A stretch of DNA of 64,000 nucleotides, from the NCBI RefSeq assembly GCF_020740795.1, contig NC_067286.1, forward strand, positions 16,992,350 to 17,056,349, in the 5' to 3' direction. The DNA comes from Apus apus (Eukaryota > Chordata > Aves > Apodiformes > Apodidae). This document shows, piece by piece, positions 39,230 through 57,753 of the stretch; position 1 is the first letter of the stretch, and every line of letters begins with the position of its first letter. The notes beneath the pieces are model-generated. The model had not been told where the DNA came from. It searched no databases and saw only the letters and a list, made by a program, of their open reading frames with translations. Position numbers and translations under genes: made by a program.

Positions 39230-39604
39230 CTGTATGATGGGGATAGATTTGGTGCTTGGGTCAGTACTAGAAGGGAGCAATCTAACAGGAGACATAGGGT
39301 TGGTCTGCATTTTAGGAACAGCCAGCTGTGGGTTAAAGCTGGCAGCAGGCAAACGGCCCTGAGCATTCTGCACAGGAGTGTTGTGGGAAGAGGAGGCGCT
39401 GGTATTGCTGGTAGGGAGTGGGTTGGATTTAGTAGACTGGAGTGGTTTTTCGGCCAATTTGCTCTTGGATGGCAAAGTCTGCGTCTTTGGGTTGGGCTGA
39501 AGTGCTGGCTTTGGTTGGAGTACATGTCCAGGCCTGGAGGCGTTCCTACAAGCATCAGGGTCCAAGGAGACTTGGGGTCGGGGAGAGAAAGGGAGGTCGG
39601 AGGT
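39230..39604 (-). CDS. BRSK2: BRSK2 alternative 5' extension of the Pro-rich exon (125 codons)
   Basis: Open-frame extension contiguous with the core exon. A second acceptor, TTCATCCCCCCTCAG|ACC, lies at its upstream end. From there to the core acceptor is exactly 375 nt (125 codons) with no stop and in the same frame as SSPR. It encodes a Ser/Pro/Asn-rich low-complexity segment beginning [20 protein letters not shown] and containing [10 protein letters not shown] and ending [16 protein letters not shown] is also found, as I recall, in the equivalent part of BRSK1, between its SSPR block and its TP-rich repeats. The usual mammalian BRSK2 form jumps straight to VTPHPSP. I infer an alternative 3' splice site giving a long isoform; retention as real coding sequence is likely but unproven. 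Confidence 0.7.
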
Positions 39605-39881
39605 CTGAGGGGGGATGAAGAACTTTCTGATAGGCTACGAGACAGACACAAAGTGTCCATGCACATCAAAAACAGTGAAATACGCATAGAGCGGGCGAGC
39701 AGAGAAAGGAAAGTCAGAATAAAATCCATCCAAGTCACAAAGATGCACCATGTCACAAGGAGACACAAGAGATGGAGGTGGAGGGATAGTGGAGGGGAGG
39801 GATTTTGCAAAGAAACAAAAAAGAACAAACAAACAAAAAACAAAAAAAGACATGCAGTTAGCTGGGAACACAGCATAATCA

Positions 39882-43603: not shown

Positions 43604-43664
43604 CCTTGGACTGCTGAGAGGACTGGTGGAGAGCCCAGACGACGCTCCGCTGATTGACCGAGAC
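43604..43664 (-). CDS. BRSK2: BRSK2 exon: SRSISGASSGLSTSPLSSPR
   Basis: Coding exon of 61 nt. The first base G completes the Arg codon of the upstream exon; then 20 complete codons give the Ser-rich block SRSISGASSGLSTSPLSSPR. The acceptor is ATTCAG|G and the donor AGG|GTAAGT, so the exon ends at phase 0. The block is a phosphorylation-rich disordered stretch shared by BRSK1 and BRSK2. Because it ends on a whole codon, it can join either to the GTC at 39229 (short form) or to the ACC at 39604 (long form) without losing frame. Confidence 0.97.
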
Positions 43665-46600: not shown

Positions 46601-49433
46601 AAGGCCAAAAGAAAGTAATGAAAATGTTGCATTATGTTGAAATGCTGCAATGAAAGAACAAAGAGAATTAAAATGTTTATCCCCCTCACCAGAAACTGGA
46701 AGTGTCTGGTGTTGCAGGCAGCACATTAGTATGGCAGACTATGGCTGATCTTAAGTGTGGAAAAAGGAAAAAAATATTGCATAATCTTATCTATGGCTAT
46801 GTATTAAATTTATTTAGTGGGAAATACCTATTAGTGAGTAACCATCTAAGAGTCTCTTAAGGCATTAAAATAAATGTCATTGGAAGTCTGAAGTACGTAA
46901 TTATTCCAATAACTTTATACTAAATGCAACAATCTAGGAAACTACGAACATTGTGTGTGACTCATTTTGCTCTGTGTTTTGCTTTGCTACATGCTTGGGC
47001 ACTAATTCAATGGAAGCCAGCAAAAAGTTGTTGAAAATACAAGCAGAAAAGTTAATGCAGTTACTCAGATAAAGAGCATTCCCTCAAACACAATTGCCAG
47101 ATTTGGAGACACAAGAAGAGATTCTTCAGTCCCTTCCAAAGTGACCTAGCTGTTTTGCCAAGTCTTGAAGGAGGAATTAGGAAAAAAAACATGTAAGGGA
47201 GCTAGACCCAAGGTTTAGGAGGGGAAAGATGTAGAGGGCACTCTGAACAGAAGGTGGGCACTGAGACCATTGCAGGCTATTCCTCCCATCTCACAGATTG
47301 ACAATAACCTGGAGACATCTGAGCTATGAAAGAGGTCAAGGACTGAAACAATATGTGCATGTGGGGGCTGCAGTTTGTAAATGTGATGATTTTATGCCTT
47401 ATTCAATCTCTTTGATATTTCAAAGTATCAAAGTTACAAGGTCATTTGTTTTAACTTTTTACTCATTTTAGCCAGCTGCTGTCAAAGGGGAAGCATGTGA
47501 GGCCAATTTCATGTTAGGTAAGTGGTCTTTCACTGGTGAAATTGAGGAGCTGGAATCCAGTTTCCATCTGGTTTCAGAGAACTGCAGAATTTCTTGGGAG
47601 CTGTAAGAGGTGAAAGGCTGAAGCCTCACATTGCTGAGGTACAGGCAGAGAGAAGTACAAGAAGGAAAAGCACATCTGACCTGGTAACTGTACTACACAT
47701 ATATCACATGTGCAGAGCACCTCTGTATAGCCCTTCCCCCAGATTAATTTTCAAGTGCTTTAAGCACTGCAGCTACCAGTACCACTGGTAGAGTATAAAG
47801 GCTTCACAACCAGCATTAAACATCTGGCTTGAATTTGGCATTTGTTTCTTCTTGGAATAACCATCTCACAGAAATTTTTCTGACAATGGGGCATGTGGTA
47901 ACTTGTTGCAGTCCCAGCAGAACTTGCTTTCATCGCACAGTTTTACCAGGATGCTGAACACATTTTAGCTGGTCAAGCAGGAGCCATGCGTCCAAGATGG
48001 GGAGCCTGCAGCATGCATGCAGCGTGCAGTAATGCATCAGACTTGTGTCCCTGGGTGAAATGCCTTAGAAATTTTAAATTGTCTTGATTCTATGTGTTGT
48101 TTTGAAAGTAATTCCCAAAATTTCTAGCCAACCTCTTTATTTGCTTCAAGCATAAATCGGGTGGAATTTGATACTCCTCTTTGCTTGCTCACTCAAATAA
48201 AGCAAAAAAAATTCTAAACTGTATTTCAGGGTATGAGTGGCCTCAAAAATGACTTGAATTAACATAGAATAGGTGAGCAGTAAGGCATCGTGTGTTACAA
48301 CATTTCATTACTATTACTCTTGGGTGTCCAAAAGATACAAACGTGCTTCCTTGCTCCTTGACACAGGCAATATGAATAGAGTAACTTTGATGTTCCATTG
48401 TCTTACAGTCCCAACTGTGCAAATGATACTAACTATAACTCTTCTTGCTGGGAATGCTTATGCTTCAGTCAGAAGGTCTACTCATGGTAATAACTGCTTG
48501 TAAGATGAAGTCTTAGAAAGAGTCTAGAGAAAGGACCACAGGTGTTGGTAACACACCTCTTCTTCCTTTCAGCACACATAAAGGGTGATATTAAACAGCA
48601 CCACTTTCCATAACTAGTCAGTTATACTGAAGTTCCATGTATAAATGATTCAGAGATAATTAATAAATAGTAATACATGCTACAAACATGAGAAATAAAT
48701 GTTATTGGTGCTTTCTCAATATGTACCCTCTCAATATTTTGCTGCAGTCTGTAGTGATCTATTAAAATGTTTTTGTTAAATAATTTATAAATAAAACATT
48801 CTCTTTCTGTTAAGTATTTATAAATGGAACTTTAATTTGAAGCATAACTACATTCCTAGTTGTACCTATATCCTCTATAGAAAAAGAAGATCTTTGAGTA
48901 TTTGTCTCTAGGGCCATCTGTTCACCTGTTAAGAAAACATACACTAAAGAGAGAGGGAATATCCAGCATTTTTTTAATAACACGGATGGGATTCAGTTTC
49001 ATCCTAAAAAAAGCCAAACCAAAACAATAAAAAAAAGATAAATTAGGATAAAAAATAACTGGAGGATACCAAATAGATACAAAAAGCAGTCAACAGAGAA
49101 GGGGGTTTCATTCTCAGATGTCCTGGTACCTGCACAGTGTCTGAGGATAGTTCTCTGTGCCCACAGACATTGAAATATAGAGACAAACAAGAGAACAAAA
49201 AAGAACCCCAAAATAAATCACATGGAGTGAGACTACAACATAAAACCACACAAACACGCACAAAAAGCACCAAAAATGCTTCTTCCCACATCTCTCTTTC
49301 TCTCTCTCCCTACTGTGAATCCTCATTCACTGAAGTATCTCAGCCTGGATTGTATTTATAAAGTGCAAATGATAAGTTTCTCTACAAGATACAACAGGTA
49401 CTGCAACAGGAATAATCCAAAACTAGAGCTTAC

Positions 49434-49457
49434 CCCAACGGATCAGCACTCGCCATC
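49434..49457 (-). CDS. BRSK2: Candidate 24-nt BRSK2 microexon
   Basis: Unannotated candidate exon of 24 nt between the HGQR and SRSISG exons. On the minus strand, a pyrimidine tract of about 50 nt (CTCTCTTTTTCTTTCTCTC continuing to TTTTCCCATTCCAAG) runs up to an AAG acceptor. The 24 nt are followed by GGG|GTAAGC. Joined to the AG of the upstream exon and the G TCT of the downstream exon, the frame stays open and inserts MASADPLG after HGQR. The exon holds two CpGs in AT-rich intron, as expected for constrained coding DNA. Short in-frame exons of this kind are typical of neuronal microexons. I do not recall this insertion in mammalian BRSK2, so it remains a prediction from sequence. Confidence 0.55.
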
Positions 49458-52400
49458 CTTGGAATGGGAAAATGAAGAGAAAAGGAGAGAGAGAAAGAAA
49501 AAGAGAGGGATGTGGAGGCAGGTGGAAAGAAGAGTAGGAAAAGCAGAGTGAAATACTGTTCGGAGGACTAAACGGTCATAATTATTGCCACCAGTGCCTA
49601 TGTCTTCTGAGACCAGGAACACTAGGGGGACAGTTTCATTCACCAGAAAATAACTTTTGTCCTGCTCACAATCTTGCAGACACATCCAACTTTGGCACTG
49701 GGGATTATGGAGAGGGACATACTAAGGTTGTACAAAAATTTCCCAGCCAAATCCCAAATAAAGCAGTCAGCAGAGCAAAGGGGTTCATACTTCATTTCTT
49801 TTTTGCCTCTTGCATAAGGCGCAGTTATGCCAGACTGTTATCAAGGACATTTTTTCCTTTTTGTCCCCAGTTTGCTCAGTGTAGTGTCCCTCTGTCCCCC
49901 AAGCTGGCCTGGTAAGAAGTACTTTTTTTGTCACGAATGAACTGTGAAACATATTGGTTATTAAAGCATGCATTTCTGAGCCAGCTTGGGAGCCCAGGGT
50001 ACAAGATTGTAGCTCAAGCTGTGAATCTGTTTGGTACTGGCTTATTAGTCATGATGGACTTCTAGTCAGGAATTCAGATCAGCTAGAACATACTGCCTCA
50101 GCAACCTGGCACTTATCTCTGTGGAAGCCATCTTGTGCTGCAGGATCTCATTTTTCATTTAAAATAAATTCAGTCGCTGGGTCTTAAAGGTTGCAAAGAA
50201 AATTTTTCAAATGTGAATGGAGAATAAATCAATGCTGTGCCAAAAAGAGCCTGAAATAGCAGCTCTAAAAGCAGAATGAATCTCTGGCATGCTGACTTTG
50301 AAGCCTAGCAACAATAAAAAACTTCAGTATTCTGAATTTTTCACTACTAACCAAAGCATTCAAGTTTTAAAAGAATAGTCAGGTTACTAAGTTTTCTGGG
50401 GTGCAGGTAAGCAAATTCAGGAAAGTATCACCACCTTTTCACATTAACAAAGATTAGATTAGAAATAAAATAATAAAAATGGTGTGTTACTAATCCAAAT
50501 TATTTTCAAGTCAGGTGGAGTGCTTTTTTCCCTCTCTGTCTCTTTCTCTCTCTTATTTTCTCAATTTTCAGTAACAGGCTCCCAAGCTGCCAGAGTTACC
50601 TCCGGCTGGGTGAGGAAAATTCATTCTCCACAAGATGGTCACCAGCAGAAATGCCAAATTTAATATATGCCCCATAGATTTCACAGTTTACTGCTCAGTG
50701 CAACTAGCCATGCTTCCAGTTACATCAACATTGCAAATGCTGGGCTGGGCAACACAAGGCAGTATTGAGAAAAGTTAAAATTAAACATAGTTAGAACAGA
50801 AAGAAAAAGCTGTTGTGCTACACATTGATAGAGAAGTGGAAAGAAGCATTACAGTCAGTTCTTTTTCATGTGTTTGAGTGACACTCCATTTGTATTTTTG
50901 CCTGGAGTGAAAATTTGGGTAAGATCTAATTCATATACATACACACATATGTATATATTTAGGGACAAGCACTGTCCTCAATTGTACCCATACAAATCTA
51001 TCTACAGTGATGTAACTGAGAAGACAAATTGACACCCATTGTATATTGGAACTTTTGTGTATATTTATATAGAAAATACACTCATATGCACACATGCAGA
51101 ATATTAACATGTAAATAGAATGGGTGCAAGAAGGCTGATTAATTTTTCTTTCAAGTCATTTTCCCAACAGGGAAGGCACTGAAGAGGTAAACAAAAGAGA
51201 ATGGAAAGCAAATTGACAACAGGGGAAAGGAAAAGGGAAATGAGGTTTAAAAAAAATGAACAATCCCAGGATACCCAGAAGCGCAGACATGTGCATTCCC
51301 TACAATACTGAAGCAAGTGAACTACGGAGCTGCAGCAACCCAGATACAGAAGAAGAGAAGCACTGAAAGAGGGGGTGAAATAGAAAGTCAGAAAGAAAGA
51401 AAAAGAAAGGGACAGTGGCCTCAGCTACTAAGACAACCATGTGCATCTAGAGGGAAGGGACCCTTAAAGATGCAGTATTCCTTTAAAAAAGACATCATAA
51501 AGTTGGATAATTAAACACTGGGCAAAAATTTAATGGCGACCATGATTAGTTGGCCCCATTTTGCTGGGGTTCTCTTTGCTGCCTGTCCATTCCTTTCATG
51601 TGGCTGTGTGCTGATCCAGGATCCCGATCCTCTCACCTTCCCATCCACTGAGGTCCTTCATCCTAACTCTTAGAGGTGGGAGTGAGGCAAGACCTCAGTG
51701 AATGTGATCCTTTAAAAATCAGCCTGGTCCTTCAATGAGAAGGACCCTGTGTGATCCTCATGCAGTGCTCTAACTTCCTCCTCCTGTATTCTGAAAAATA
51801 TAACCTTTGAGAGAGGACAAGAAATGCCCATCTGCATTTAAGAAATTCCCCCAGTGGTTGCTGAACGGTCATTTCCTTTGCTACTAACACAGCTGGAGCA
51901 GTTGCTAGAGAGGGACAGAGGCACAAGAGTGCTGGGAATGTCTGCTGAAAGATCCTTCTGTGACAGATAAAATTTCTGCACTTCTCTTAGTGAGCGTCAC
52001 TTTTGATTACTGTGGAACAGCTTCTCTTCAGAGTAGTTTCAGACTAACTTTTAAGGCACACACCACGTGTTCAAGAACAAGATTTATGTAGAGGAGGAAT
52101 CAGAGAAAGGAACAGGAATTTCCATGTCTACAGTAACAGTCCAGGAAAGTCCATCCACTGTATAACCACTACTTCCTCATGGATGTGAAACTTTCTAGTA
52201 TTTCAGGTCCAATGCTTGCTCCTATCTTGGCATCTTAAAGAAGTTGCTTTACATACCATGTGAGGCACAATCTCTCCTACAGATGCACAATGTTCTTCAT
52301 TGTGCCAAGTTCCAGACTTGAAACACTGCCCAAAAAGGACTGCCTCAGCCTGCAAAAGGCTAAACCAGGGGCTGTCCCTCACACATCCTACAAGACTCTT

Positions 52401-55400
52401 GAGGCTTAAAGGCTACATTTACCTTCAAATATAAAGGTTTCTATTAAAAAAGGAAATGGAAAGAAGAGTGGCTTCCCAGGTCCATAGGTTCCTTTAAGGA
52501 ACACAATGCTTCCCTGCATCCCTCTTTTATAATCATATGGAACACTCTTAACCTTTGGGTAAGCTAATTGTTTGTCCAAAATGTATAAGAATTACATTTT
52601 GATGAAGAATTATCCCTTGGGATGCCAGCTTCTAACATTAGAGAAAAAAATACTATCCTCTGAGATTGAAATTTTAGGAACAACATGTGCACTAAAAACT
52701 TTCCCCCCCTATGATATTATTTTGTTTTGTTCACGGACAGATATGAGTCCACTTAAACTTCCAAAAGCTGGTGGCCTGCAGGTCTTCTATTTTGCCTCTA
52801 CTCACATTTGGGAGTTACCCTTTTCGTTATTCACCATCTGTCACTTGAACTGCTAGATTGAAAACACCCTCTAAAAACTCAATCTTTGATCATCTTTTCC
52901 TCTTGTGCTGCCTGGTGCATCCAGGGTAGTCTGAAGGAGTTTGGTTATAACCTACAAGCACATAGCATTTAGCTCTGTCAGACAGGATTACCAAAGTTTC
53001 CTACTGTTGTTGTCAATGACTCAGTTGTCAGTGTTGTTCTTAGTGCTGTGATTGGAGCAGTCTGGGATTTCCTTGTGTTTTGTGTTTCAATACTTTCCAA
53101 ACCAGACTTAACAAATATGTTTTCTACCCTGGGCAACCTCACTCATGGCAGAACAGAACCAGAAGTAGCAATAGGATGAAATTTTAGTGGGGAAAACAGT
53201 TTGATCACAAGCTGCATTGGGGATAGCCTCAAATGAATGGCACTGTCCAAAAATACAGGTCATGTGGGGCTGTAAATATCCCACCCTCTTTGTTTCTCTC
53301 TAAAGAGACAATAGCTGTGTCCCCACACGGAGAAGGTTAAGTACTGCATCTTTAAGGTCTCAGCAGTGAGGTAGAGGAGAGGAACATATTTTCAGTGTTT
53401 ATACCTTTCTTCTTTGTTGAATTTGGGATTGGCTTCAGAGATATCCAGGCTTTTACTGAACATTGTTTTACTATGGCAGGAACAAAGCGAGAAAACAGAG
53501 TTACTAGTGTGGACATTTATAAAAGAGAGTCACCTGAAGCAATTCTGGACACCCAGACCCCCAACCCACCCTCCCCTTTTTAAGCAATGCTCTGAAAAAC
53601 CTTTCTTTTGCTTTCCAACTATGGCTGAAGACTACACAGTGCTGAATTTCATTATATTCCCATGATTTCTGAGGTCTAGGACAACTCCCCCATACATACT
53701 TGTAAAACCTGCTCTCCTTTATCCAACTGAAAACTCAGGTACCATCTAATTTGTCACATTGTCCAGGGAAAATAGAACATGCCTGAGGGCGACAATTGCA
53801 AAGACCTCATTACTCAGACTTCTCCAGAAGACCTCAATACTAAGCAGAAACTGGGAAAAGGTTAAAATCCGGCCATAAAGCCTCTTAGAGGAATAGTAAT
53901 CCATTTTGCATTCTAATTTTTAGGGTCCATTACCACTTACTCCCAACTCTCTTCCCTATATTCAATGTATAGAGAAATGGCCTTCTTTACCATCTTGGGT
54001 CTGAATCCCTGAAACTTAGAAGCAAAATTCCCTGTGCTTTCCTAAAGGGGAAACTCTTTGCAATATGTTTCACTGGTAATATGCTTCATTGATTCACAGA
54101 ACACTGCTTCCTTGTGTTAGCTCATCTTTCATGCAAGCTATCTACTTTAATAACCAGAAGAAAATGAATAGTTAATGAAGCCCATTTTAGAACAGGTTTT
54201 GGATTCTTACAGCAGAGCTGCAGAAAATTTCTGGCATACCCCTGAGGGATTCTAGCTCCCAAGAAATTATTCCTAGTCTATGTGATTTTGGCACAGGGGA
54301 CAAATTAGCTGGTGTTGAACTAAGCTCAGATTCTACCTCTTCTGCTTTGACATTTCAATGAAATATCAGATAGTCTAAGTAGTGTGGATACCTCAACAGC
54401 AGAAGCAATTATGATGTAATTATGAGCCTGTTTAGTTAACAACTAGTAGGGCAAACCAAGAATTAACCAAACTTAGTCACCAGTTTTAGGGTGGCTGGTC
54501 TTCATGCATCATACTAACTTTGCCATATATAGACCCATTGAAGAACATTTGGAGAGGTCATATGAAGTATTTCCAGGAGTCTGTAAGTTCAACAAGCAGC
54601 CTTTGTGCTGATTTCCCCTCCTCCAGTATTCAAAACTAAGTCACTGAAGGACTATGTTTTTCACTTAATATTATCTCAGCCTGTAGGGTTGAAGGCTTCC
54701 CAGTTTCAAATCTTGATGGAAAGATATGCCCTTAAACAAGTCAAAACCAGACACTTGTAGGGTCCCCACATGGTTCCCAAAAGCACAGTTTATCACACAC
54801 ACATCAACCAGAGGTTATAACACAAATTGCCTTTATGCAAGCAGACATCTGTTTACTACCAGGAAAGAGGACAACAGGACTAAATCACAAGACACATGTG
54901 TGTTCTGCCCATTGGTTAGAAGAGTATCTCTGCCAGCTCAAGAAAGAAGCAATGGCTGAGTATGTCCAAATGTTTACACAGGTCATCTGCGCCTAAGCAG
55001 AAGATCTGTTTCCCTGGTCCACCTCCCTGTCTTCCTAGGATAAAAAGCACAGAATAGTCATCTGTTGAGACAAAAAAATGTTGTTCATAAAAAAGTATCC
55101 ACCTCTGGGATCTAATTCCTACTGCTGTATCCACTCTCAGTGGTCATTTCATGGGATATAATATGTGACTAGCCATTAAAAATCCCTCACTCTTGGTGGA
55201 AACACTTGTCATTTTTTTACTGACTGTTCTGACAGATGGTGCCCCATCAGAAATACATCATCCCCAGATAATCCCCATGCAGTGGTGTTCATTTATGAAG
55301 CCAGTTCATGTTATAAATGACTGTGCTGCCAGCAACACAAAATGTGCTGTTGTCATCTGTGAATGTGGATGGTATGACTTATGGAAGCTCACACATGGAG

Positions 55401-57276: not shown

Positions 57277-57753
<477 letters not shown>

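Follow-up and report, generated by a model that had tools for sequence, protein, structure and literature searches.

A probably neural microexon of tetrapods in the BRSK2 linker that may add an R-x-x-S site

Vertebrate neural microexons are SRRM3/4- and eMIC-dependent exons of 3-27 nt, and according to the available part of one study, eMIC-dependent exons are marked by long AG-exclusion zones, UCUC-rich tracts, a nearby UGC and strong CUAAY branch points (PMC8797185). The BRSK kinases are laid out, in the excerpt available, as a kinase domain, a UBA domain, a C-terminal spacer containing a proline-rich region, and a KA1 domain (PMC11964447), and BRSK2 variants have been reported in autism (PMC9231588, likewise an excerpt). 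What is described of BRSK2 splicing, as far as the accessible portions of the sources go, is a tandem donor of exon 19 (PMC1779574), and the mere presence of Brsk2 in a gene-ontology table for Qki-regulated splicing targets (PMC6429586). In the full-text literature no paper was found that treats BRSK2 or BRSK1 together with a microexon, and SAD kinase together with microexon led only to a paper on translation in the neocortex, itself available in part. Here we analyse a 24-nt element in the BRSK2 gene of Apus apus, which is very probably a real and conserved microexon, another representative of a familiar class of exons.

The coding exons found in the window (the whole stretch of 64,000 nucleotides that was analysed) match BRSK2 on the minus strand; their positions come from a tblastn search with a human query protein together with splice-site scoring (Table 1). 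In the intervening DNA the minus strand reads CCAAG/GATGGCGAGTGCTGATCCGTTGGG/GTAAGC, with slashes at the splice boundaries: an element of 24 nt, within the 3-27 nt range of microexons, with AG before it and GTAAGC after it, exactly as a preliminary description of this DNA had reported. It contains no stop codon and its phase 2-2 preserves the frame. As the exon upstream ends in CAG AG/gtgggt (hereafter the HGQ exon) and the exon downstream starts ttcag/G TCT CGG (the SRSISG exon), the 24 nt lie in frame and add MASADPLG, in agreement with the in-phase insertion first proposed. The pyrimidine tract of about 50 nt noted at that stage was also recovered, pyrimidines making up 94% of the 50 nt that precede the final AG. 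The predicted junctions into the microexon are GAAAG/GATGGCGAG from a 66-nt exon that we call SKTMF and CAGAG/GATGGCGAG from the HGQ exon, and the predicted junction out of it, to the SRSISG exon, is TTGGG/GTCTCGG. The 24-nt stretch occurs once in the window, and a 144-bp query spanning it has a single place in the 1.10-Gb genome; an origin from a high-copy repeat was set aside on account of this one place, which is not proof, given that the search skips very common words. When the whole genome was queried with the BRSK2 linker protein, BRSK2 exons were found at this locus alone (3 places); the BRSK1 paralogue was not found in the assembly with this BRSK2 query.

Table 1. Positions of the BRSK2 exons and splicing signals in the window
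Feature	Position	Strand	Basis or score
BRSK2 exon	63327-63230	-	tblastn/splice-site scoring
Upstream BRSK2 exon, ends ...EMAQHGQ(AG)	57410..57560	-	tblastn/splice-site scoring
66-nt in-frame cassette exon SKTMFSKSLDISEANPKFNKEE (SKTMF)	53405..53470	-	tblastn, splice-site scoring, bird models
Pyrimidine-rich 3' splice-site region, UCUC repeats, AG-free until final CCAAG	49458..49555	-	
24-nt BRSK2 microexon, phase 2-2, predicted to add MASADPLG	49434..49457	-	sequence and 75 bird BRSK2 models
5' splice site GTAAGC	49428..49433	-	donor score 9.1
Downstream BRSK2 exon, (G)SRSISG...SPR	43604..43664	-	tblastn/splice-site scoring
BRSK2 exon VTPHPSP...	39229-39022	-	tblastn/splice-site scoring

Taken by itself, the splice-site score of the microexon is ordinary and within the range of chance. 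With simple splice-site matrices, nine of the 6390 minus-strand AG..GT pairs of 3-27 nt in the window (the microexon included) and four of the 6293 plus-strand pairs reached its summed score, and these eight other coding-strand pairs and four opposite-strand pairs are what favours regarding the element as a chance intronic AG..GT pair that is never spliced in. The AG-free, 94%-pyrimidine tract is suggestive. The two CpGs of the microexon, at 49439 and 49451, had been put forward as a sign of constraint; they are present, and such pairs are uncommon in the intron, but as evidence they are weak, at least two CpGs being found in 51 of the 9711 26-nt windows of this 9.7-kb intron. An argument for significance from the sequence by itself was therefore abandoned, since the splice-site scan fails to single the microexon out, and the argument made in the preliminary description is best seen as a good guess, not a demonstration. 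Because the scan does not discriminate, we relied on protein evidence instead.

Three protein searches were conducted: one with 42 residues around the insertion (496 matches above cut-off, best 120 listed), a second with a mammal-like query (196 matches above cut-off, best 120 listed) and a third with an axolotl query (112 matches above cut-off, all listed). They gave 158 different proteins in all, each row being the representative of a cluster at 90% identity, so that the status of human or mouse could be concealed within clusters (P0141, for instance, stands for 944 members). Among the best 120 of the 496 matches of the first search, KEERMASADPLGSRSISG was found exactly in 75, which belong, by a hand count of the listed names, to 35 bird species, including ostrich, chicken, quail, ducks, falcon, owls, cuckoo, hummingbird, barbet and many songbirds; isoforms from one and the same species account for many of these 75, all of which are predicted gene models, between which homology can spread. 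Of the 36 bird species among the matches listed, only Corvus kubaryi departs from MASADPLG, by one residue (MTSADPLG); the other 35 share all eight residues. The conservation among birds on which the candidate had been staked thus held at the protein level, as an identical peptide in 35 species.

As a control, three-frame translation of the eight other minus-strand pairs that score at least as high as the microexon yielded peptides of at least 4 residues for four of them, two of which overlap, and these four gave no match in the 158 proteins, in which MASADPL is found 75 times; the remaining four were too short for a peptide test, one of them lying inside the SRSISG exon. The reading as a chance pair is largely contradicted by the protein matches: the exact peptide lies at the junction in 75 proteins from 35 bird species, diverged versions are found at the same place in other tetrapods, and the four testable control pairs are absent from the proteins. 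We regard it as highly improbable that the element is never spliced in.

Comparison of the models shows counterparts of the microexon in squamates, a turtle, the axolotl, marsupials and cetartiodactyls. At the same junction, geckos and the lizard Phrynosoma have MTSADALG, the rattlesnake Crotalus MTSADTLG, the turtle Caretta MASADALG and the axolotl TASADTFG. Among the mammals there are MASASALG in the Tasmanian devil and MASALG in koala, MAGAGAQG in whales and bovids and MAGAQG in deer, besides an irregular MGGAGAQG in pig, where SPL stands ahead of its R. The versions of koala and deer differ from those of their relatives by residues worth 6 nt, in frame, a property that the building of gene models itself imposes. 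The third search, within its 112 matches, gave no further amphibian and no lungfish, coelacanth or shark; it added three proteins, all lacking the insert, from Sceloporus, Lerista and koala.

Small inserts are also found at this place in fish BRSK2 proteins (among P0086-P0120), such as YAWR (12 nt) and YTNTQEQR (24 nt), with longer ones in goby and clingfish. Like the microexon, they are small, in frame and located between HGQ and SRSISG, but their residues are unrelated, their lengths range from 4 to 15 residues, and no SKTMF exon precedes them in the models seen.

The microexon is already contained in predicted isoforms in NCBI, UniRef and nr, so that the word undescribed does not apply to the databases; among the listed matches in the full-text literature, supplementary catalogues and most subscription journals aside, no paper describing a BRSK2 microexon was found. 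Predicted NCBI models with X-numbers usually draw on RNA-seq.

Several of these models suggest that the microexon is used alternatively. Proteins with and without it were found within one species both in koala (with, P0140 and P0141; without, P0158) and in pig (with, P0143; without, P0153), and in each of the lizards Sceloporus and Lerista one model skips the microexon after SKTMF. The twelve lowest of the best 120 of the 196 matches of the second search also lack it, namely those of squirrel monkey, capuchin, dog, a cat, meerkat, marmot, ground squirrel, rhino, pig, oryx, porpoise and narwhal. Bird models without the microexon were not seen among the matches listed, where skipping forms would rank lower, so constant inclusion in birds does not follow from this absence. 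Taken together, the models make it likely that the 24-nt element is a genuine, alternatively used coding microexon of BRSK2.

The HGQ and SRSISG exons had been named as the flanks of the microexon, and both are real, but they are not its immediate neighbours, because the 66-nt SKTMF exon, overlooked at first, lies in between. In each of the 75 bird models that share the exact peptide, the microexon is joined to SKTMF and not to HGQ, so the HGQ-microexon splice originally proposed is absent from them. The tetrapod versions fetched show this junction in no more than two models, both from whales (P0001 and P0003), which makes it possible, though it is not the junction of the bird models seen. In mammal models the 66-nt exon occurs as SKAMF or SKALF. 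This exon has the same flanking exons and the same phase as the microexon and lies in the same linker, but it is a separate upstream exon, which twelve mammal models among the matches listed have without the microexon. Elsewhere in the gene, an open frame of about 405 nt (...IIQ) extends directly upstream of the VTPHPSP exon, at 39230-39634 on the minus strand, with TCGTAG as alternative acceptor; this frame is used by squamate, axolotl and koala models and, among the 75 bird models that share the exact microexon, by two. In a linker extension, 101 of 106 residues encoded here are shared with owl and falcon models.

With the vertebrate neural microexons the element shares its 24-nt length, its preservation of the frame and its alternative use, as well as its location in a brain kinase gene and a long AG-free, UC-rich tract. 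Two marks of the SRRM3/4 type are present, an AG-exclusion zone (previous AG at -100) and a UCUC-rich tract; the microexon differs from eMIC-dependent exons in that a UGC is missing near the 3' splice site, the nearest one lying at -63, and in that the 300 nt upstream contain no CURAY branch-point motif, with looser YUNAY matches at -95 and -19. RBFOX (GCATG) and QKI (ACUAAY) motifs were not found within 300 nt on either side. Judging from these signals, it is somewhat probable that the microexon would be included mainly in neurons by way of its long UC-rich, AG-free tract, with PTBP1 repressing it outside neurons and SRRM3/4 promoting its inclusion within them. The missing UGC and CURAY branch point, and the pairing of the microexon with SKTMF in all 75 identical bird models, would also suit a real cassette exon that is not neuron-specific but broadly or weakly included, perhaps tied to the 66-nt exon; the long AG-exclusion zone and the UC-rich tract speak against this, as does the designation of BRSK2 as a brain-selective kinase in a title (PMC11964447, available in part), and we consider it possible but rather unlikely. 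Our best reading of the element is as a probably neural microexon of the tetrapod BRSK2 linker that would add an R-x-x-S site.

Given its position before a 14-residue stretch, we infer that the microexon lies in the C-terminal spacer of BRSK2. Its inclusion would put eight residues into a serine-rich linker just before SRSISG, converting R-S-R-S into G-S-R-S ahead of I-S-G and making a new R-M-A-S site for a basophilic kinase and, possibly, for 14-3-3. The loss of R-S-R-S together with the gain of R-M-A-S leads us to propose that the microexon would retune how the linker is phosphorylated, not the fold of the kinase. These motif-based effects, from the insertion to the retuning, are put forward tentatively. 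Of the 111 fetched proteins with a tetrapod version, 89 gain an R-x-x-S motif, and in the 22 cetartiodactyl carriers its serine is missing.

The same exon could be spliced and in frame while its eight residues remain idle and are tolerated in the linker, which would be compatible with a genuine microexon; such neutrality would fit the varying residues and length in mammals and the twelve mammal models without it among the matches listed in the second search. The identity of all eight residues in 35 of the 36 listed bird species, ostrich included, with Corvus kubaryi one residue off, weighs against neutrality, which we find doubtful. Extended across lineages, the phosphorylation proposal would describe a tetrapod microexon that dates back at least to the amphibians, is fixed at eight identical residues across birds and decays or has been dropped in several mammal lines, and that works as a phospho-switch dependent on lineage, gaining R-x-x-S and losing R-S-R-S, a speculative view to which we give little credence at present.

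If true, it would place a phospho-switch in an autism-tied kinase, and the brains of birds and of many mammals would run differently tuned forms of BRSK2. An eight-residue insert that hardly changes among the birds seen, and that varies or is absent in many mammal models, would offer a testable case of linker tuning in a brain kinase, and the mammalian reference isoform of BRSK2 may not represent other tetrapods.
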